Both the position numbers and the translations under genes were made by a program. A model generated the notes under the pieces. The model saw only the letters and a program-made list of their open reading frames with translations. It was not told where the DNA came from and made no database searches. DNA of 64,000 bases from Hyphobacterium sp. CCMP332 (lineage in GTDB: Bacteria; Bacteroidota; Bacteroidia; Cytophagales; CCMP332), in contig CP058647.1 in the NCBI GenBank assembly GCA_014323545.1, forward strand, positions 3,140,001 to 3,204,000, in the 5' to 3' direction. Numbering within the stretch: position 1 is the stretch's first letter; each line of letters opens with the position of its first letter. This document shows positions 17,520-35,933 of this stretch, piece after piece.

Positions 17520-17545
17520 TTTATATCGTTTAATTTAGTCGAGCA

Positions 17546-17571
17546 GGGGTGCAGAGATGCACCCCTTTTTT
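17546..17571 (+). terminator. Rho-independent terminator after peroxiredoxin gene
   Basis: Perfect 8-bp stem GGGGTGCA / TGCACCCC with loop GAGA, followed by six T (17566-17571), 26 bases after the peroxiredoxin stop. The clearest intrinsic terminator in the window. Confidence 0.9.
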
Positions 17572-17768: not shown

Positions 17769-17799
17769 TTTGAGATAATGCCTAAAACACATACATTTA
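17769..17799 (+). promoter_or_regulatory. Promoter of the four-gene caspase operon
   Basis: -33 TTTG at 17769-17772 and -7 TACATTTA at 17792-17799 (seven of eight consensus positions) with exactly 19 bases between, the optimal Bacteroidota spacing. Predicted start is about 17805, a few bases before the first possible start codon at 17814. Confidence 0.65.
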
Positions 17800-17813
17800 G
17801 ATAGAATTAAAAT

Positions 17814-18797
17814 TTGTGTGTGTTGGAAAAATACAGTTTTATTAAATGTCTGTTCTATCTAATCCCGGTTTCTTTTTTTCTGATTTCCTGTTCTTCAGAG
17901 GATATTGATGTCACTAAACTTCAACCGACAGAATTAGAAGTAACTGTCTTAAATGCCAATGGACAACCGGTACCCAATGCGGAAGTAAGATTGTATCGTT
18001 CACAAAGAGCATTTGAGCTTTTAGCACAGGATGTTGCAAGGGGTAAAACCAACGGTTCAGGCAAAATACTCTTTTCGGATTTACAACCAGTAAATTATTA
18101 CTTCTATGCTTTTTACAAAGATCAGGGAGCAGGCCTTGTTAGAAGTAATTACGGAAATTTCAATGCTACTTATTTCGATGATAAATCAAATATTTCGCTC
18201 TATGATTATTTGACTGAAAATGGTCTTACAAAGGTTTCAGTCTCAACACTTTTTACCAAACCCATCAATCCGACTGAAATAAGCTTTGATGAATTGAGAA
18301 TTATTTATTCAGGTGAAGAAATGGAATTTCCATCTAATGCCAATGATACCCTTGATATTGCTTTTGGATTTTTCGAAGGAGGCGTAAACAATATTTACGC
18401 GATAAGTACAAGCAACCCTACTAATGCCCTGGTTTCTTTTACAGATAATTCTTATTTCTTCTATCAGGAGTCTTCAGAGAACATACTCGGTGAACTCTAT
18501 TATTATAGTTTTGCAAATCCTGTATTTTTTGACCTCAATGCGCTTGCTCCGCCAAACAATAATGGAGGACTATCAACGACTTTAGATTTAATCCCTATAA
18601 CATATAATGAATTCACGGGAGAATTTGATTTTAATGATCAACTATGGGGATTGTATGTCAACCTTGATTTTTATTTAAGTGAGGTCATTATAAATGCGAG
18701 GGCCACAGGGGATTATCCCAACAGAATTGTTATTGATCCAGATGCATATTTAGGTAAAAATAATTATGCCCTGGATGTTATTTTAAGCTGGAACTAA
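17814..18797 (+). CDS. Lipoprotein with N-terminal Ig-like (carboxypeptidase-regulatory-like) domain; caspase operon gene 1
   Basis: 327 residues if it starts at TTG 17814; GTG 17820 and TTG 17823 are alternatives, and in-frame stops at 17802 and 17808 exclude any upstream ATG. Lipobox SFFLISCSSED gives a surface or periplasmic lipoprotein. Residues ~40-110 (ELEVTVLNANGQPVPNAEVRLYRS, then GKTNGSGKILFSDL) are a carboxypeptidase-regulatory/SpaA-like beta-sandwich, a common carbohydrate- or protein-binding scaffold. The remaining ~210 residues are unrecognised. First gene of a tight operon with spacers of 1, 4 and 1 bases, leading to an exported caspase. Confidence 0.75.
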   Translation: MCVLEKYSFIKCLFYLIPVSFFLISCSSEDIDVTKLQPTELEVTVLNANGQPVPNAEVRLYRSQRAFELLAQDVARGKTNGSGKILFSDLQPVNYYFYAFYKDQGAGLVRSNYGNFNATYFDDKSNISLYDYLTENGLTKVSVSTLFTKPINPTEISFDELRIIYSGEEMEFPSNANDTLDIAFGFFEGGVNNIYAISTSNPTNALVSFTDNSYFFYQESSENILGELYYYSFANPVFFDLNALAPPNNNGGLSTTLDLIPITYNEFTGEFDFNDQLWGLYVNLDFYLSEVIINARATGDYPNRIVIDPDAYLGKNNYALDVILSWN

Positions 18798-18798
18798 A

Positions 18799-19302
18799 AT
18801 GAAAAAATATTACTTTTTTGTACTCGTTTTACTGATTTCCATTATTTCCTGCTCCAGAGATGAGGTAGAACCATCTAACCTTACACTTTTGACTGATAAT
18901 GGTGTAAAATCCTGGCTAGTTGTAAAACTTGAAGAGGATGGAGTCGCCCAACCAAGTGATTGTTCAAGTGATGATATTTTCACATTTGAACTTTACAATG
19001 AAGAAACAGAAGCCACAAAATATACAATTGAAGATAATCTTGTTGCCTGTGTAATCATAGACGATTATATAGTTTCTGAGGGAACCTGGAGATTGAACAA
19101 TAAAGGCAACAGGATAACTCTGGTTCAAAGAGATAATTTTGTGATAATCGATGAAAACAATCAACAGGAAGAAGCTTCAGATTTTGTCAATCAGGTATTT
19201 GATATTGTAGAAATAAGCGAATCAAATCTCGTACTTCAGGCTACTGATGAATCCAATGAATTTGATCCGAAGGTAGTTACTTATACACTAAGAGAGTTTT
19301 AA
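18799..19302 (+). CDS. Lipocalin-like lipoprotein; caspase operon gene 2
   Basis: 167 residues. Lipobox LISIISCSRDE. The body follows the small Bacteroidota lipocalin-like pattern: SWLVVKLEEDG near the N-terminus, a Cys pair (DCSSDD and NLVACV), EGTWRLNNKGNRITLV in the middle, and a final strand (VVTYTLREF). Such domains are eight-stranded cups that bind small ligands or dampen receptors. One base separates it from gene 1 and four bases from the barrel gene, so it is co-translated with them. Ligand unknown. Confidence 0.72.
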   Translation: MKKYYFFVLVLLISIISCSRDEVEPSNLTLLTDNGVKSWLVVKLEEDGVAQPSDCSSDDIFTFELYNEETEATKYTIEDNLVACVIIDDYIVSEGTWRLNNKGNRITLVQRDNFVIIDENNQQEEASDFVNQVFDIVEISESNLVLQATDESNEFDPKVVTYTLREF

Positions 19303-19306
19303 GGTT

Positions 19307-20014
19307 ATGCAAAGGATATTAACAATAATTGTCATTTTATTATCAGTGTCTTCCATATCAAAAGCTCAATTTGAAAAGAAGCTGACTTTTGATTTTTCAC
19401 TTGGTTATGCCATACCAATGGGGGAAGACTTGAGAGAAGATCGCTTACCTTATTTCTACAGTAATATGAGCTCCGGGTTTGCTTTTGCCGCTGATTTTCA
19501 ATACAATCTCAATAAGAAATTGTCAATTGGAATGAGAGGAGAATATACTGACTTCTGGTCATGGTATGATCCCCGCTCAAGTCAGGTGGATGATAGCGAT
19601 GAATCATGGATAACTCTGATCAGTATAAATCCATATGCCCGATATAAAATTCTCGATAAGAAAATATCTCCTTTTGTTGTAGTATCAGCAGGAGCTACCA
19701 TATACAACGGTGAAAGATCACCCAGCAAAATTGTTATTAAAGATTTTTATGCTTCCAATCCTGAATCTTATCAAGCACCTATCAATGAAGTGACCATCAG
19801 AGAATCAGGACAATCCCTGAACACAAGGCTTGTTCCAAATACAATGGCAGGACTCGGTGTTCAAATGGATGTATCACAGTCCATTGGTATCTTTTTGCAG
19901 GCAAATTACAATCTGGTATTTACAAATCGGGATGAAGTGCTGAGACAGAACATGCAATATGTTCTTGTAACCGGTGGCGTTAATCTCAATTTTGTAAAAT
20001 CCAAAACTCTCTGA
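19307..20014 (+). CDS. Outer-membrane beta-barrel protein; caspase operon gene 3
   Basis: 235 residues. Signal peptide ends SISKAQ. Alternating hydrophobic strands typical of a small outer-membrane barrel are visible: LTFDFSLGYAIPMG, SGFAFAADFQYNLNKKLSIGMRGEYTDF, INPYARYKILDKKISPFVVVSAGATIY, TMAGLGVQMDVSQSIGIFLQANYNLVF, ending in YVLVTGGVNLNFVKS. This matches the PorT/OmpA-barrel-like 'outer membrane beta-barrel' class. It probably anchors or gates the exported caspase encoded one base downstream (inference from operon). Confidence 0.8.
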   Translation: MQRILTIIVILLSVSSISKAQFEKKLTFDFSLGYAIPMGEDLREDRLPYFYSNMSSGFAFAADFQYNLNKKLSIGMRGEYTDFWSWYDPRSSQVDDSDESWITLISINPYARYKILDKKISPFVVVSAGATIYNGERSPSKIVIKDFYASNPESYQAPINEVTIRESGQSLNTRLVPNTMAGLGVQMDVSQSIGIFLQANYNLVFTNRDEVLRQNMQYVLVTGGVNLNFVKSKTL

Positions 20015-20015
20015 T

Positions 20016-22112
20016 ATGTTAAAAAATCTTGTTTGGCTTGGATTAATTACATTGTGTAGTTCAGTCTTTGCACAAGAGCCTGCCTTAATCAAAAAAGTGG
20101 ACCCTGATAAACAAAGCATTCTGGCCATGGCGAGTTCTCCAGATGGTAAATGGCTCGTAACCGGAGGTGACGACAATCAGGTCATTTTTAGGGATTCTGA
20201 AAATGGATCCACTCTTTTTAAGCTAACAGGTCATAGCGACTGGGTTACAGCAGTTGAATTTTCATCATTTGATGACGATATGCTCAAAGTATTTGCATCC
20301 GGTTCCCGAGATGGACATGTTATTATTTATGATATCGAAAAGCGTATTATTATTTACCAGAACAATTCCTTCGAAAAGACGGTCAATGATATAGAAATTA
20401 TCAACTCCCTAAATTATTTGGTTGCTGTAAGTTCCGATGGTCAAATGAGTATTGTGGATTTAAATTCAAAGCAGGAAGTCAATAAAATAACAGTCTCTAG
20501 CTCACCGGTTTTGAGCGTTTGTGCAATTCCGGGAACAAATAATATTGCCACTTCCGATGCAGAAGGAAAAATAAGAATATGGGATGCTCTTTCGGGAAGT
20601 ATGGGACAGATCATAGATGCCCATGATAGTTATACGCGTTCAATTGATTTTATGAACAAGACTATAATTAGCGTGGGAGATGATAAATCAATAAAATTCT
20701 GGGATGCCGAAACGGGCAATTCAAAATCGAGCATTGAAAAAGTGCATAAAAAATGGATTCAACTTGTAGAAAGTGCCAATGATAATCAACATTATGCCAC
20801 AGGAGGACACGATGGAATGGTTCATTTTTGGGAACTTGGGAAATCTGAACCAATTTTTTCCTTAAAACAAAATGGCACATTTGTTACCGGTGTTTCTTTT
20901 TCATCTGATTTGAATAAGATATACACAGCAGGCTATGGAGGAGACATTCAATATTATGATATATCCTACCTCAATCTTGAACCCATTAAGAAGTACCAGG
21001 CCTCAGTTGCTTACTCAGCGAATAAACCCAGCACAGCAAATCTGTCAAATGAATCTGCAAAAAACGAAGTTGTTCTTGTTCAACCATATATTGAAAGAGG
21101 GAATACGTTTTATTGTTTGGAGGAAAAAATAGTAATCAAAGGTCAATTACTTTCAAAAAGCAGTATTCGGGAATTCAAGATCATTAATAAAACTACAAAT
21201 GAAGAAGATAGGCTTAGGGTTTCCGACAACCAAATCTTCGAACATGAGCTGCCAATTAGATTTAAGGATAATGAAATTAGTATTCGATTTACAACTATCG
21301 ATGGCGAGGTAGCAAATAAAACCATAATTGTACACAGGATATTTGATCAAAATAATCCCGATGATTTGGTTAAACTTACCAGAAATGGGAGAGATTATGC
21401 ATTGATAATTGCAACCAACAGTTATAATGCAATGAATGATTTGGTCAATCCCGTTTTTGATGCAACAACAATTGCGGCGGAATTAGAGAATAATTACAAT
21501 TTTAACGTTGAAAAAATTATAAATCCACCCCTGGATGAGATCAAGCTTAAGATTAAGGAGTATTCTAAGAAACTATACGCCGATGAAGACCAGCTTTTTA
21601 TATTTATTGCCGGACATGGTGAGTATGACGAACTGTTCAAAGAGGGCTATGTTGTTGCCTCCAATACAAAGGAAGGCGATGAAGCAAGAAGTACTTACCT
21701 TCCACATAGTACACTTCGTACTTATATAAACAATATTCCCTGCCGACATATTTTTTTAACCATGGATGTTTGTTTTGGAGGAACATTTGATCCATTTATT
21801 GCCAAAAGAGGCAATGAACCCTCAAAAGAGGAGCAGGTCAAAAAGATGCTATTCATCAAAAGAAAAATGAGTTATAAAACAAGAATCTATTTAACATCCG
21901 GTGGCAAGGAATACGTACCGGACGGCCGCCCCGGTCATCACTCTCCATTTGCAAGGCAATTTATAACAGCCTTGAGAACTTATGGAGGGAGCGACGGCAT
22001 ATTAACCTATCAGGATCTAATGAGCAGCGTAGAAATGGTAGAGCCCCAGCCAAGGGGAGGTGAGTTCGGTGATAATGAGCCGGGAAGTAATTTTCTGTTT
22101 ATTTATAAATAG
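20016..22112 (+). CDS. Exported WD40-repeat caspase-family (C14) peptidase; caspase operon gene 4
   Basis: 698 residues. Signal peptide (LGLITLCSSVFAQ). Residues ~25-320 hold about six or seven WD40-like blades (LTGHSDWVTAVEF, VIIYD, KIRIWDALSG, SIKFWDAETG, MVHFWELG, DIQYYDI). A linker of ~100 residues includes an Ig-like strand set. Residues ~458-690 are a caspase/metacaspase domain: YALIIATNSY, catalytic His534 in FIAGHGEYD and catalytic Cys586 in MDVCFGG. The TGT codon for Cys586 was confirmed at 21771-21773. Substrate specificity is unknown; Asp584 near the catalytic Cys resembles metacaspases. Most bacterial caspases are cytoplasmic, whereas this one is predicted to be exported. Confidence 0.9.
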   Translation: MLKNLVWLGLITLCSSVFAQEPALIKKVDPDKQSILAMASSPDGKWLVTGGDDNQVIFRDSENGSTLFKLTGHSDWVTAVEFSSFDDDMLKVFASGSRDGHVIIYDIEKRIIIYQNNSFEKTVNDIEIINSLNYLVAVSSDGQMSIVDLNSKQEVNKITVSSSPVLSVCAIPGTNNIATSDAEGKIRIWDALSGSMGQIIDAHDSYTRSIDFMNKTIISVGDDKSIKFWDAETGNSKSSIEKVHKKWIQLVESANDNQHYATGGHDGMVHFWELGKSEPIFSLKQNGTFVTGVSFSSDLNKIYTAGYGGDIQYYDISYLNLEPIKKYQASVAYSANKPSTANLSNESAKNEVVLVQPYIERGNTFYCLEEKIVIKGQLLSKSSIREFKIINKTTNEEDRLRVSDNQIFEHELPIRFKDNEISIRFTTIDGEVANKTIIVHRIFDQNNPDDLVKLTRNGRDYALIIATNSYNAMNDLVNPVFDATTIAAELENNYNFNVEKIINPPLDEIKLKIKEYSKKLYADEDQLFIFIAGHGEYDELFKEGYVVASNTKEGDEARSTYLPHSTLRTYINNIPCRHIFLTMDVCFGGTFDPFIAKRGNEPSKEEQVKKMLFIKRKMSYKTRIYLTSGGKEYVPDGRPGHHSPFARQFITALRTYGGSDGILTYQDLMSSVEMVEPQPRGGEFGDNEPGSNFLFIYK

Positions 22113-30073: not shown

Positions 30074-32326
30074 TTATTCTTTTGATAATCGGAAAATGAA
30101 GTAGTTACCAAAATATAGTGAGGACTTCACTAAGAAGGAAGCATATAAAGTGTTAAAATCCGAATCGCTATTTGCAGGATCAAACTTTCTATATTGACCA
30201 GAATTAAAATCATAAACCTCAACCAAAGATGAGTGTTTTTCAAATGATAATTCTATTGGGATTTTGGTTGGATTTAGCCAATAGTTGAATTGTTTAATTC
30301 TGTATTTGAGAATATTATCCGCCTCTGTTGTTGCAAACCATCCTAAATAATTTGTCCGCATATTATAAACAGATATTCGCTTACTCTGACTGTAACCAGG
30401 AATATTGGTGAAAACGGTTTCCTTGTAATCACCAACTAATAAAAGGCCACCTTGAACTGGGAGGATATTTTCGTAAACCAGTCGATAGGAATCCATGTAT
30501 GGATTAACACTACCTACAATAATATAGGACTTGAATTCATTATAGGTCGTTCCATTTCTCTTGGCATTTCCCAAAAAAATTGTTTTGGCAAAATTATTAC
30601 TGTTTGTTTTCGCTTCATATGCATATTCGTTATCGCTGATATAGAGGTTTGTTGAAAAAAGGAACTCATTGTTGAAAACCATCTCATGAAAACCATAATT
30701 CGCAAAAACTCCTTTTTGCTTCTTGATTTTAAGTCCGTTCAGATTGACAAACCTAGACCTGAAATAATCCGAATAATTTAGGCTCATAGCATCTTTTGAG
30801 TTAGTGGCCATCATGATAAAACGACCCTTATTAATGATAATGAGTCTTTGAGTATTACGTAATGACTTGTCTGAACCGACTATGTATGCATGTCCGGTCA
30901 GCATTTTATTCACCTTCAACTTGTCGGTTGCCAAGAGATTTTTTTTGGTATTCATCTTATCCAGTTCGAGCTTAATGCTTGAATCACTTGACAGGTCATA
31001 AACGAACCTGCCTTCTTTTTTGACATTCACAAAAAGATAATTTTGATTATTCAATATCTGCTGAAGCTCCGAATACAGAGATTCATAGTCGTATGCAACC
31101 AGAACAGCATGGTTGAGATTGTATCCTTTGCCATAGCAGTTTTGACAGTCATTTTTTGTAAAGAGATCTTCAATTCTTGATCTGTTATCAAAAGAATATT
31201 TCGAAACGGTAATTGATTTTGGTTGAAGGTCAGTATAGATATCGATATCTCTTCCTACAAAGTCTTCCGGTTCAACCTGTAAATTAGAATTCTGATCAGC
31301 CCAAACCACATTATCTGGGGTATTTGCTTTTATCTGAATAGGAAGGACGAAAACATTGCTGACCTGATTATTATAGGCAAGTTCAATGGCTCTGGAAACC
31401 TTCAGTTCACCATTGGCAAACCTATTATTGATTAGGGCGCTCTTGATATCCAGGTATTCTTTGCTATGTGTTTGTTTGTATGCATTTATTAGCATGTTTC
31501 TTTCTTCAATTCTTTGAGCCCCTGCATCCAACTGCATCTGCAGGTTATTTGCGAATTGCTTTGCATAAGCTTTTCTTTCTGCGCTGATGCTGCTAAATTT
31601 ATTTACAAGTGTTGTAAGCTCATTAAACCCCTCAGAAATCTTTTGATTGTATTCATCTCGATAATTTGGTTGACTTTGAACCTGGCCTCGTTCCAGGAGT
31701 TCACGTTCTCTTTCCTGCTCTTGTGTTTTGTCTGAGATTTGTTCAGAAAATGATTTCTCTTTTGAATGAGCATACTCTTTGAGTCGCCCTGCTAATACAG
31801 ATGCCGTACCACCTTCGAGACTTGTGATTTCCGAACCCGTTAAAACACTGTATCTTACCCAATCTTCGTATTTTTGATTGATCTCTTCTTTTGTGTAATT
31901 CTTTGGATCAATGCCAAAGTCGAACCATATTTGATTCCATCCAGTATGTGGATTAAGACCTACCATTGATCCCTTTGAATGCTCACTCTTATCATAAGAT
32001 TCATTACCCCAATTGGAAACTTTAAATCTAATGAGGGGTGCAAAACCGGTCGATTCATATGGAATTTTGGTGTCACCGTAAGTCCCGGTAGTATATGTTT
32101 TTCCATCAACCACTATCGAAGTCATTTGTATTTGTTTCCAACGGGCTTTCATAATAAAGAAATAACCACTACCGGGCTTATCTCTTGAGAACTCATATTC
32201 AAGAATCCCGGTAACAGAGACCTTATAACCATCTGCAGTGCCTGAATAGTTAATTACTTCTTCTTGAATTTGTGCCTGACTAGATAGAGATGTCAGCAAT
32301 AGTGTGAGTGATAGTAAATTTTTCAT
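30074..32326 (-). CDS. Large exported partner protein of the second caspase module
   Basis: 750 residues from ATG 32326, chosen because it directly opens a signal peptide (MKNLLSLTLLLTSLSSQAQ); an upstream in-frame ATG at 32389 would overlap the caspase gene and bury the signal. The N-terminal ~150 residues are strand-rich (YKVSVTGILEYEFSRDK ... GLNPHTGWNQIWFDFGID). Residues ~185-310 are helical and charged, probably coiled coil (QEQERERELLERGQVQ; AERKAYAKQFANNLQMQ). Residues 394-401 form one CxxCxGxG motif (CQNCYGKG). The last ~300 residues are strand-rich. No family recognised. It starts 46 bases after the caspase gene stop and is surely co-transcribed. Confidence 0.75.
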   Translation of the reverse strand: MKNLLSLTLLLTSLSSQAQIQEEVINYSGTADGYKVSVTGILEYEFSRDKPGSGYFFIMKARWKQIQMTSIVVDGKTYTTGTYGDTKIPYESTGFAPLIRFKVSNWGNESYDKSEHSKGSMVGLNPHTGWNQIWFDFGIDPKNYTKEEINQKYEDWVRYSVLTGSEITSLEGGTASVLAGRLKEYAHSKEKSFSEQISDKTQEQERERELLERGQVQSQPNYRDEYNQKISEGFNELTTLVNKFSSISAERKAYAKQFANNLQMQLDAGAQRIEERNMLINAYKQTHSKEYLDIKSALINNRFANGELKVSRAIELAYNNQVSNVFVLPIQIKANTPDNVVWADQNSNLQVEPEDFVGRDIDIYTDLQPKSITVSKYSFDNRSRIEDLFTKNDCQNCYGKGYNLNHAVLVAYDYESLYSELQQILNNQNYLFVNVKKEGRFVYDLSSDSSIKLELDKMNTKKNLLATDKLKVNKMLTGHAYIVGSDKSLRNTQRLIIINKGRFIMMATNSKDAMSLNYSDYFRSRFVNLNGLKIKKQKGVFANYGFHEMVFNNEFLFSTNLYISDNEYAYEAKTNSNNFAKTIFLGNAKRNGTTYNEFKSYIIVGSVNPYMDSYRLVYENILPVQGGLLLVGDYKETVFTNIPGYSQSKRISVYNMRTNYLGWFATTEADNILKYRIKQFNYWLNPTKIPIELSFEKHSSLVEVYDFNSGQYRKFDPANSDSDFNTLYASFLVKSSLYFGNYFIFRLSKE

Positions 32327-32372
32327 ATTCTGGATGTTGTGATTTAAAGTTTCTGTGGGATTACGTAAAGCA

Positions 32373-35300
32373 CTAAATGGCTTCAGCAATAAGATTTTTC
32401 AGTGCTTTAATGATTTCTACTTTATCAGGGTGAGTCAGATCGATATTCGAAATAACAGAACCGTTTTTAAGTAGATTGGCTTGTAATGTAATTTGACCGT
32501 TTTTATCGCTGTATACACCACGGATAGAATATGCATTAGTAAACCTTGCTACATCCACAAAAATGATACTTTCATCATTTGCTTGTATATCTCTTAACTG
32601 CTGGTTGAGTTCCTCTGAAAGATCAAGATTGTCATCAAATGTTTGTTGGTTTTGAAATATAGATCGAATAAAAATTGGCTTTGGACTGGGAAGTTGAATT
32701 TTTTCCCGATCTATTGACTCCAGCATGCCCAAGTCGAAAGATTCACCTCCATATGGTATTCGGATTTCCGGTTTTTGAATTCCACCAATTTCTCTGGCCA
32801 AATCTGGTACCTTATCGGCAGCAAATTGAAATAGGCTTAATACGTCTACATACCTATTATCCCTGAGAGAACCACCTTTCATACCAAACAATAGGCTATA
32901 TGTAAGCAATCCCTGACCGTAAATACTCGCTTCATAACTGACCGCATCAGCTGCGGAACCTGAGAGTATATACATTCCTGTTCGATCCTTCATTCTTTCC
33001 AATGCCCTGAGTTCAGTTGCTTGCTTTGAAGAGCGTTTACCCATAAGGTCTTCAGCAAACTGACCTGAATGACATGCATCGAAAATGAGGACTTGTTTTA
33101 ATGCCGGGATTGATTTTACCCATTCTGTTATTTCATCACTCGAAATCGCTACGTTTTCTCTGACAATAGGGTCGCTAATGTTTCCGCTCGATGCTGATGT
33201 GGTTATATAGTAAAAATCAGCAGACCCTCCTTCATAATTCGTTCCGTGTCCGGCGAAGTAAAGTAAAAGAAGATCCTGCGGCTTTGCAGTTAATGAAACC
33301 TTTCTGAATGCTTCTCCAATATTCTGCTTACTTGGTTTCAGATCACCAGCGGTGCTTAATAATTGGATAAATGTATTTTCAGCACCTAGATAAGATTCGG
33401 AAGCCAGTTTCAGAACTTCAGAAAATGCTTCGGCATCCTTATCTGGATAAGAAAGGTCTAAACTGGTGCCTTTGTAATCCGAGGTACCAACTATAATTGC
33501 ATATAGTTTTGGACTAGGCGATTCCTCTGTGCGACTGTTTATATAATAGACTTTACTGGCAGGACTAATGAGATGCTCATCTGAATTATAAGCCTGTACT
33601 TCAATAAGGTTAACACCTTCTTTCAAATAGGGATGATCTTTAATGTCATATTGAATTTCAAACTCTTCGGAAGTCTCTCTTGCATTTGCTAATCCACGTG
33701 CATCGCTGGTTGTTTCTTTTCCGTTTACCTTGATGATCACTGGTCCTATGCCTCCACCTTGATTTCTTATTGATATACCAAGTTTATGATCATTTTTGTT
33801 AGGGGCCTTCAGATCGATTTTTGGATATATTTTAATTTGATTTAGGGACGTCTTAATGTCAACCTTTTGACCCTGGAACATCCGCTGAGCAAAGCCAGGT
33901 TGATAGAATCTGTCTTTGAGCTGGTCAAACCCAATAGTGAGGGTTCCTTTTCTGAAATAGAATTGATTATTCTCAAACCCACTACCATCAAATACCCCGG
34001 TCTCATTATGGATAATCCAGTCATCAATGTCTGCCGTGAGAGTGAGAAAATAATTCAATTCCGGACTAGTATTGGATTTTTTGATTTTATAGATATCGGT
34101 AATGCCCGACTTGTATGTCACAAACAGATATTGCCCTTTAGCAGCTGTAAGAATTTCAAGTGATGATACATCTCCTTTCAGGGCTTTGCTTAACTTGAAT
34201 GTGTTCATCTCTTTGATTCCCTTATTTGGATCAATTTGAAAAGAATAAAAGCCTTTATCTTTTAATACAATTCCTCCGAATTTTTGCCAATTATTGAAGA
34301 GTGCAAAGCATTGATTCCCTGTTGAAAGATTATTTTTCTGTATGAACTTTAAATCAAAATTATCTTCGAAGTCTCCATATCTTACCAGCATCATCACACC
34401 GCCGTATATGGCTAAAATCAAACCATTTGTATCTAATGAAGCTAGTTGATAATTGCTGTTACGTTCATAGGCACTTGTTTCAATATCATAGTATTCATCA
34501 TAGCCATTTAATCGGATGTTTGTCTTTCCATTTATCAAGTCCGGCAGCTCCCATGTGCTTCCAAGAAGGGTGTCTTTTATGATCCCATTCTCATAAACAT
34601 GCCAGTTGTGGAAATAGTTACTGAAAACTGTATTGCCTTCGCGCCGTTCTTTTTCAAAATAATTCTCATCCGATATATAGAGCGTTGCATCGTTATAGGG
34701 GAAAGAGAGATCGCCTATCTTATAATCTCCTGTAATTTCGGAAGACTTAAATATTGGGATTTCTGAAGGACTGAATGATTGATAAGCCAACCTCCCATTT
34801 AATTGTAGAATCCTGATAAAAGTGCTGTCGGTGCAACTGGTTTTCACCAAAGGAAGTGAACCTGCAAGCTTTTTATTTAAAAGTTTATCAACCTGCCTTT
34901 CTTCATCTAAAACATAGATCTGGATTGAATCTTTGGAAATCAGAAGCCTTTTGCCTTCAAAATCATTGTCTATCAGGTCCACATAATCAGTTCGATAAAC
35001 TTTGCTTTCCGGAGAATAGTCAGGAAAATTTGCCTGAATATATTCCCGGACTTCTCCACTTTCACCCTCTACAATGATTTTAATGTCTTTTTTGCCTGTT
35101 TCTAGCATTATATCACCATAGCTTGTGAATATTATCAGTTTATTCTCAAAATAATGGATGCTATCAATTGGTCCATATAATTCCACAGGCAATACATTCT
35201 TGTTTTCAAAATCATAGACTTCATTCTCATCCAATATCATTATTTGTTCACCCAGAAAAAAACAATTGTAAACCGGTTCACCAAAAGTTTCTTTTTTCAA

Positions 35301-35933
35301 ATTGGAGTTTACTGATATGCCCTCTGAACTTATTTTAAAGTGAATTATATCGATACTTCCGTATCCATATCGAAACGGCATATCGTTAATCCGCTTTCTT
35401 ACATGCCGCGGACCATCGACTGTATAATAATCATCGTTGAAATCATATATCGGCCGTTCTCCACCCAGGAATAGGTATAAGTGGTTTTGTGTAAAATGTA
35501 GATTAATAGGGTCAAGAAATTGAGGTAAGTTTTTGATTTCGTTTCTGAAATTGAAGCTGGAAATGATTTGTCCCGAAACAATATCCCAGATCATTATTTT
35601 ATCCTCATCGATGGAATATAGTTTATTACCCTTCAAGCCTGCAATTATCTGGCGTTCCAAATCTTTTTTTCCTTCAGAATTTAATAGCGGATGCTTATAG
35701 CTGTTAATGAATCGAAAAGTCTGACTTTCCCTTAGGACAATCAATCCGGAACGATCAACAGAAAGTATATGCTTACCGTCTTCAGAAAATCTGTAATGGT
35801 TTACAGGAGCTTCATGTTCCACCGGAATCACAAGCTCTAAATCCTGCGCCCGAGATTGGCCATGTAAAAGAAAAAAGAGATTTAGAAGAGAAGCCCCAAG
35901 AAGATTGAAATTGTACATTAATCTATTTTTCAT
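32373..35933 (-). CDS. Exported caspase-family (C14) peptidase with N-terminal propeller
   Basis: 1186 residues. A long signal peptide or anchor (NLLGASLLNLFFLLHGQSRAQ) ends near residue 30. Residues ~35-660 are propeller-like (APVNHYRFSEDGKHILSVD; KIMIWDIVSGQIISSF). Residues ~710-805 form an Ig-like segment (IIKVNGKETTSDARG; NLIEVQAYNSDE). The caspase domain (~808-1075) has YAIIVGTSDYKG, catalytic His896 (YFAGHGTNYEG) and Cys954 (FDACHSGQF; TGT codon confirmed on the minus strand at 33072-33074), plus a SGSAADAVSYE strand. The last ~110 residues are a separate small domain. Its promoter box is at 35957-35964. Exported caspases with propellers are poorly studied. Confidence 0.9.
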   Translation of the reverse strand: MKNRLMYNFNLLGASLLNLFFLLHGQSRAQDLELVIPVEHEAPVNHYRFSEDGKHILSVDRSGLIVLRESQTFRFINSYKHPLLNSEGKKDLERQIIAGLKGNKLYSIDEDKIMIWDIVSGQIISSFNFRNEIKNLPQFLDPINLHFTQNHLYLFLGGERPIYDFNDDYYTVDGPRHVRKRINDMPFRYGYGSIDIIHFKISSEGISVNSNLKKETFGEPVYNCFFLGEQIMILDENEVYDFENKNVLPVELYGPIDSIHYFENKLIIFTSYGDIMLETGKKDIKIIVEGESGEVREYIQANFPDYSPESKVYRTDYVDLIDNDFEGKRLLISKDSIQIYVLDEERQVDKLLNKKLAGSLPLVKTSCTDSTFIRILQLNGRLAYQSFSPSEIPIFKSSEITGDYKIGDLSFPYNDATLYISDENYFEKERREGNTVFSNYFHNWHVYENGIIKDTLLGSTWELPDLINGKTNIRLNGYDEYYDIETSAYERNSNYQLASLDTNGLILAIYGGVMMLVRYGDFEDNFDLKFIQKNNLSTGNQCFALFNNWQKFGGIVLKDKGFYSFQIDPNKGIKEMNTFKLSKALKGDVSSLEILTAAKGQYLFVTYKSGITDIYKIKKSNTSPELNYFLTLTADIDDWIIHNETGVFDGSGFENNQFYFRKGTLTIGFDQLKDRFYQPGFAQRMFQGQKVDIKTSLNQIKIYPKIDLKAPNKNDHKLGISIRNQGGGIGPVIIKVNGKETTSDARGLANARETSEEFEIQYDIKDHPYLKEGVNLIEVQAYNSDEHLISPASKVYYINSRTEESPSPKLYAIIVGTSDYKGTSLDLSYPDKDAEAFSEVLKLASESYLGAENTFIQLLSTAGDLKPSKQNIGEAFRKVSLTAKPQDLLLLYFAGHGTNYEGGSADFYYITTSASSGNISDPIVRENVAISSDEITEWVKSIPALKQVLIFDACHSGQFAEDLMGKRSSKQATELRALERMKDRTGMYILSGSAADAVSYEASIYGQGLLTYSLLFGMKGGSLRDNRYVDVLSLFQFAADKVPDLAREIGGIQKPEIRIPYGGESFDLGMLESIDREKIQLPSPKPIFIRSIFQNQQTFDDNLDLSEELNQQLRDIQANDESIIFVDVARFTNAYSIRGVYSDKNGQITLQANLLKNGSVISNIDLTHPDKVEIIKALKNLIAEAI

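Follow-up and report, generated by a model that had tools for sequence, protein, structure and literature searches.

We have identified a four-gene operon in Hyphobacterium sp. CCMP332 that joins two lipoproteins and a predicted small outer-membrane beta barrel to an exported, WD40-containing caspase; the genes are called w1 to w4 in their order. The window is the whole 64,000-nucleotide stretch analysed (CP058647.1, positions 3,140,001-3,204,000, forward strand). The same partners are kept in distant relatives, and the set looks like a real, apparently undescribed envelope system. With moderate confidence, we propose an envelope sensor-protease module in which lipoproteins and barrel together sense a condition of the envelope or surface, and a periplasmic protease is coupled to them through the WD40 propeller.

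Results

The open reading frames of w1 to w4 lie on one strand at 17823-22112 with spacers of 1, 4 and 1 bases, and w1 has possible TTG starts at 17814 and 17823. The original prediction of a four-gene operon with an export signal or lipobox on every product was upheld, as the shared strand and the gaps were confirmed and lipoboxes occur in w1 and w2 and signal peptides in w3 and w4. Relatives were collected from a comparison set in which L-numbers denote loci and G-numbers genomes, barrel loci being defined by a w3 profile at E<=1e-8. This profile found 30 loci among 390 genomes of the host order and, in a phylum-wide sample of 395 genomes, matched that of the host alone; within the sampled genomes the barrel family is confined to one order. 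An exported WD40-caspase adjoins the barrel at 8 of the 30 loci, in five families (Table 1). The co-inheritance on which the original prediction hinged was observed: the exact four-gene order recurs once outside the window, at L051 in G031, and a single lipoprotein precedes barrel and caspase in G119, G067, G017, G144 and G091, but what all the loci share is less than the four-gene set, and w1-type and w2-type lipoproteins are interchangeable. Homologues of w2 among the barrel loci are limited to L051, L088 and L089, and w1-type lipoproteins adjoin barrels, many of them from upstream, at at least 14 loci, where the pair also occurs without a caspase. Assuming about 3500 genes and one to three such caspases per genome, at least seven random barrel-caspase adjacencies have a probability below 1e-12 by a rough estimate; given this figure and the recurrence in five families, chance adjacency was rejected.

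The w4 protein comprises a type I-like signal ending in VFAQ (residues 1-20), a WD40 propeller (~21-330), an Ig-like linker (~345-450) and a metacaspase-like domain (457-698). WD40 (PF00400, 97 bits, cut-off 27) and Peptidase C14 (PF00656, 56 bits, cut-off 21.4) were both matched, and the catalytic residues, His534 and Cys586 in GHG and DxCxxG contexts, do not vary across a 13-sequence alignment, in agreement with the complete dyad after WD40 blades that had been predicted. A profile of 12 w4 relatives matched metacaspases best in the PDB (9e-9), followed by MALT1, with no alignment to animal caspases; the family profile was needed, since the w4 caspase domain alone retrieved nothing from the PDB. 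Asp482 and Asp584, invariant in the 12 relatives, align with Asp95 and Asp211 of TbMCA2, the acids of the S1 pocket in the Trypanosoma brucei enzyme (PMC4357240). Because these pocket acids are kept, w4 probably cleaves after Arg or Lys, and its His, Cys and S1 acids together predict a protease-competent metacaspase-like enzyme. Relatives of the caspase domain with ~40-60% identity and other N-terminal domains are found at L035-L043, outside such operons. A named-organism scan with one protein gave a distant alphaproteobacterial caspase as its sole match.

A signal-like hydrophobic N-terminus was present in all 29 caspases examined, as judged by a hydrophobicity check and not a trained signal-peptide predictor. 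The generalization that bacterial caspases are mostly cytoplasmic, on which the original prediction drew, does not fit this group. The complete host genome yielded four caspases, each with an N-terminal export signal; a PF00656 family search missed w4 and the caspase at L052, and a profile search recovered all four. Exported metacaspases had already been suspected in a 2012 survey (PMC3501461). The window holds a second exported caspase, of 1186 residues, with a signal peptide and a C-terminal Peptidase C14 domain (67.8 bits), followed by an overlapping gene for a 771-residue product with no Pfam match; a similar WD40-caspase of 1194 residues is encoded elsewhere in the host genome, at L053. 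The exported caspase at L050 has a C-terminal half that resembles, by eye, a formylglycine-generating-enzyme (FGE) sulfatase domain, an architecture noted in the same survey (PMC3501461).

The predicted Ig-like and lipocalin-like character of the lipoproteins fared less well than their lipoboxes, which are clear. Matches of w1 to Ig/CarboxypepD_reg (21.8 bits, cut-off 32.3) and of w2 to Lipocalin_4 (18.6 bits, cut-off 22.4) are sub-threshold, and the AlphaFold models are poor, with a mean predicted local distance difference test score of 42 for w1 and 46 for w2; w1 residues 36-100, a plausible beta sandwich, are the sole confidently folded region. W39, C55, D59 and C84 are conserved in the w2 family alignment. 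The residues from the lipid-bearing Cys, C-S-R-D-E in w2 and C-S-S-E-D in w1, resemble the Bacteroidota lipoprotein surface-export signal, C-X-K-(D/E)2 or S then acids (PMC5080379), and given its SRDE, w2 is probably on the outer face of the outer membrane. The predicted barrel, w3, has a type I-like signal ending in KAQ and the family C-terminus F-x-K-S-K-(S/T)-(L/F). It is matched weakly by PagL/OMP_b-brl, and among PDB structures the family profile reaches the Opa60 barrel (1e-6).

Trees of the barrel and the caspase domain place the window differently. Its barrel groups with L051, L088 and L089 (99/97), the w2-bearing loci, and its caspase domain with L033, L034 and L105 (100/100). By the approximately unbiased (AU) test, the barrels reject the caspase-congruent grouping (p=0.001) and the caspase domains reject the barrel-congruent one (p ~1e-77); the WD40 tree does not decide between these sets of partners (AU p 0.26 and 0.13). 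As each data set rejects the other's grouping, either the caspase domain or the whole gene was exchanged and the outer-membrane partners stayed in place. On these trees the window operon is a mosaic, with two caspase-domain clades wired to the same barrel clade, and the exchanged piece may be the whole w4 gene or its C-terminal half alone.

Half of the barrels (15 of 30) form the N-terminal part of long proteins and the other 15 are free-standing. The seven long proteins that were scored all continue into CarboxypepD_reg/SdrD_B-type repeats and/or OmpA or SPOR. A caspase lies beside 8 of the 15 free-standing barrels versus none of the 15 fused ones within the flanks examined (Fisher p 0.002, relatedness not corrected), and so caspase and peptidoglycan-binding domain look like alternative outputs of one lipoprotein-barrel core. 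The Pfam scan of w1 to w4 gave no OmpA or SPOR match. In six fused proteins, apparently linkers between outer membrane and peptidoglycan, a small barrel is joined to a long series of CarboxypepD_reg/SdrD_B repeats and the protein ends in OmpA or SPOR; upstream of most of them lies a gene for a w1-type lipoprotein (Table 1).

The host genome has a second exported-caspase operon at L052 (host genome ~542719-548508), which encodes, in order, a TPR-PD40-OmpA protein, a WD40-caspase, an exported protein of ~280 residues, named A6, and a CHASE2 inner-membrane protein. The A6 family occurs in 55 of the 390 genomes and has no PDB match. Of 20 further loci inspected, 14 have A6 beside CHASE2, in most cases with no caspase, and the caspase-A6-CHASE2 order recurs at L152 and L154. 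In G119 (L088), an A6 gene directly follows lipoprotein, barrel and caspase before the contig ends, so that both modules are joined in one operon.

Upstream of w1, a terminator-like hairpin (17545-17566) closes a peroxiredoxin gene, and the gene downstream of w4 encodes a polyphosphate-glucose phosphotransferase (NF045942 over cut-off). The promoter had been called near-optimal. It does fit the Bacteroidota consensus, but chance alone would give 4.7 occurrences of its pattern in the window and 3 are present; with a count no higher than chance it is weak evidence, and its use as proof of the operon was dropped.

Table 1 Features of the window and related loci
Feature	Location	Strand	Arrangement or evidence
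Putative Bacteroidota promoter, TTTG-N19-TACATTTA	window 17769..17799	+	direct pattern match
w1, lipoprotein, lipobox LISC/SSED, candidate N-terminal transthyretin/CarboxypepD_reg-like beta sandwich	window 17823..18797	+	lipobox, family alignment, model residues 36-100
w2, small lipoprotein, lipobox IISC/SRDE, lipocalin-like pattern sub-threshold	window 18799..19302	+	lipobox, Pfam scan, family alignment
w3, signal peptide, predicted small outer-membrane beta barrel	window 19307..20014	+	weak PagL/OMP_b-brl matches, family profile vs PDB
w4, signal peptide, WD40, Ig-like linker, metacaspase-like domain	window 20016..22112	+	Pfam, alignment, PDB profile match
Barrel-caspase locus	window		w1-w2-w3-w4; gaps 1, 4, 1
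Barrel-caspase locus	L051 (G031)		w1-w2-w3-w4; gaps 37, 9, 15
Barrel-caspase locus	L088 (G119)		w2-barrel-caspase
Barrel-caspase locus	L089 (G067)		w2-barrel-caspase
Barrel-caspase locus	L090 (G091)		w1-type lipoprotein-barrel-caspase; caspase cut by contig end
Barrel-caspase locus	L105 (G144)		w1-type lipoprotein-barrel-caspase
Barrel-caspase locus	L033 (G017)		w1-type lipoprotein-barrel-caspase
Barrel-caspase locus	L034 (G017)		same neighbourhood; caspase inverted nearby
Second caspase operon	L052:2720-8509
A6-CHASE2 loci	L152, L153, L154, L155, L157, L158, L160-L163, L165, L167, L169, L170
Fused barrels	L092:6804-10037, L094:4571-7093, L096:6384-8828, L101:5957-7879, L102:6478-10659, L104:4894-7263
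Large proteins with type A sorting domain of the type IX secretion system, beside lipoprotein-barrel pair	L090:3249-6122, L034:9491-11818, L107:8221-12705, L101:233-4912, L095:2776-5388
1186-residue exported caspase and overlapping gene	window 30074-35933	-
1194-residue WD40-caspase	L053 8730-12314
Caspase with FGE-sulfatase-like half	L050:6844-8664

Discussion

In the sensor-protease module that we propose, w1 and w2 would sit on the outer membrane paired with the small w3 barrel, and this pair would receive a surface or envelope signal such as damage, a ligand or a surface polymer. The w4 propeller, in the periplasm, would dock on the periplasmic side of the lipoprotein-barrel complex and hold or release the C-terminal metacaspase-like protease, which would cut envelope proteins after Arg or Lys. 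We infer the outer-membrane and periplasmic locations, the physical complex, the direction of signalling, the activation and the cleavage specificity. Several points weigh against this proposal. The distribution is sparse: apart from f20, each family is represented by one genome. Divergence is high in w1 and w2 (15-24% identity), with weak models and uncertain folds, and the export motif is not kept in their homologues. The large secreted neighbours at L090, L105, L033 and L034 suit surface assembly as well as sensing.

Surface-structure assembly or maturation is the main rival, which we regard as possible but rather unlikely. The lipoprotein-barrel pair would anchor or present cargo of the type IX secretion system (T9SS), and the periplasmic caspase would process cargo or partners and not act in a stress sensor. 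A T9SS type A sorting domain that scores above cut-off is indeed encoded beside the w1-like lipoprotein at L090 and L034, and likewise beside the caspase-free barrels at L107, L101 and L095, and large secreted proteins take the corresponding place at L105 and L033 (of these four caspase loci, T9SS scoring covered L090 and L034). The host uses T9SS heavily (116 matches), and barrels fused to CarboxypepD_reg repeats with OmpA or SPOR recall PorE/PG1058 (PMC5053529). However, the window operon, L051 and L089 have no T9SS cargo gene beside them, w4 ends in the caspase fold itself without a sorting tail, and T9SS cargo is cleaved by PorU, which belongs to a different family.

An envelope-acting self-destruction or anti-phage role, in which a phage or toxin on the barrel or lipoproteins triggers the caspase and the cell dies, seems to us improbable. 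Patchy, sparse distribution and exchange of caspase domains between distinct operons are typical of conflict systems, and bacterial caspases are known in defence in general; the neighbours of the window operon are nonetheless housekeeping genes, and related lipoprotein-barrel pairs are common without any effector. No PADLOC or PHROGs match was obtained for w1 to w3, and w4 gave only generic caspase (21 bits, PADLOC) and WD40-type matches. A known defence system was rejected, as PADLOC components were not found together and PHROGs gave no support. That the genes are adjacent by accident and the caspase works alone would agree with the relatives of its caspase domain outside such operons, but is very hard to reconcile with short gaps recurring in five families and the rough chance estimate above, and we give it hardly any credence.

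The sensor-protease proposal can be set against known systems. Like prokaryotic metacaspases and orthocaspases with WD40, w4 is a Peptidase C14 member with an intact His/Cys dyad. The 2012 survey found WD40 to be the commonest accessory domain, with N-terminal membrane or signal segments and with OmpA-domain proteins in some metacaspase operons (PMC3501461), but it describes no lipoprotein-lipoprotein-barrel-caspase unit; w4 belongs to an operon in which every product is exported, and its outer-membrane partners are conserved. In the Rcs system, the surface-exposed lipoprotein RcsF and an outer-membrane protein barrel report envelope state to IgaA, a periplasmic/inner-membrane regulator (PMC4942254, PMC9907809). 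This likeness is a works-like analogy only: the output here would be a protease and that of Rcs is a phosphorelay, and no RcsF or IgaA homologue is among the Pfam/NCBIfam matches of w1 to w4. PorE/PG1058 of the T9SS combines a propeller, a CarboxypepD_reg fold and peptidoglycan binding at the outer membrane, a domain set that is spread over the w1-w4 gene family, but it is a single protein with TPR and OmpA and no protease, whereas w1 to w4 lack OmpA. Gingipains, PorU (Peptidase C25) and other secreted clan CD proteases likewise place a caspase fold outside the cytoplasm of Bacteroidota; they differ in family, w4 having no Peptidase C25 match, and in being placed at the surface by T9SS tails, a feature absent from w4. 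Caspase conflict systems such as EACC1/CATRA also pair a caspase with sensor repeats, but they are intracellular, and w4 scores 50 bits against the EACC1-type model NF047832, below its cut-off of 140.

More speculatively, and with considerable doubt, the loci could belong to one modular trans-envelope family. A lipoprotein-barrel sensor would connect to peptidoglycan in some cases (OmpA/SPOR) and to a periplasmic caspase in others, and onward to CHASE2 through A6, with caspase domains exchanged between operons, forming a proteolytic cascade from the surface to the inner membrane.

Conclusions

WD40 metacaspases and suspected exported metacaspases are already known categories, and what is apparently new, within the open full-text literature, is the w1-w4 gene set. 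As the original prediction held, no description of this set was found there; most subscription papers lie outside that coverage. To our knowledge, work on bacterial caspase homologues has dealt almost entirely with cytoplasmic proteases of cell death or defence. An operon that recurs and combines a periplasmic caspase with dedicated outer-membrane partners would make regulated caspase-type proteolysis in the envelope open to test in a concrete case, and the apparent swap between caspase and peptidoglycan-binding outputs may provide a route to learning the role of the sensor half.

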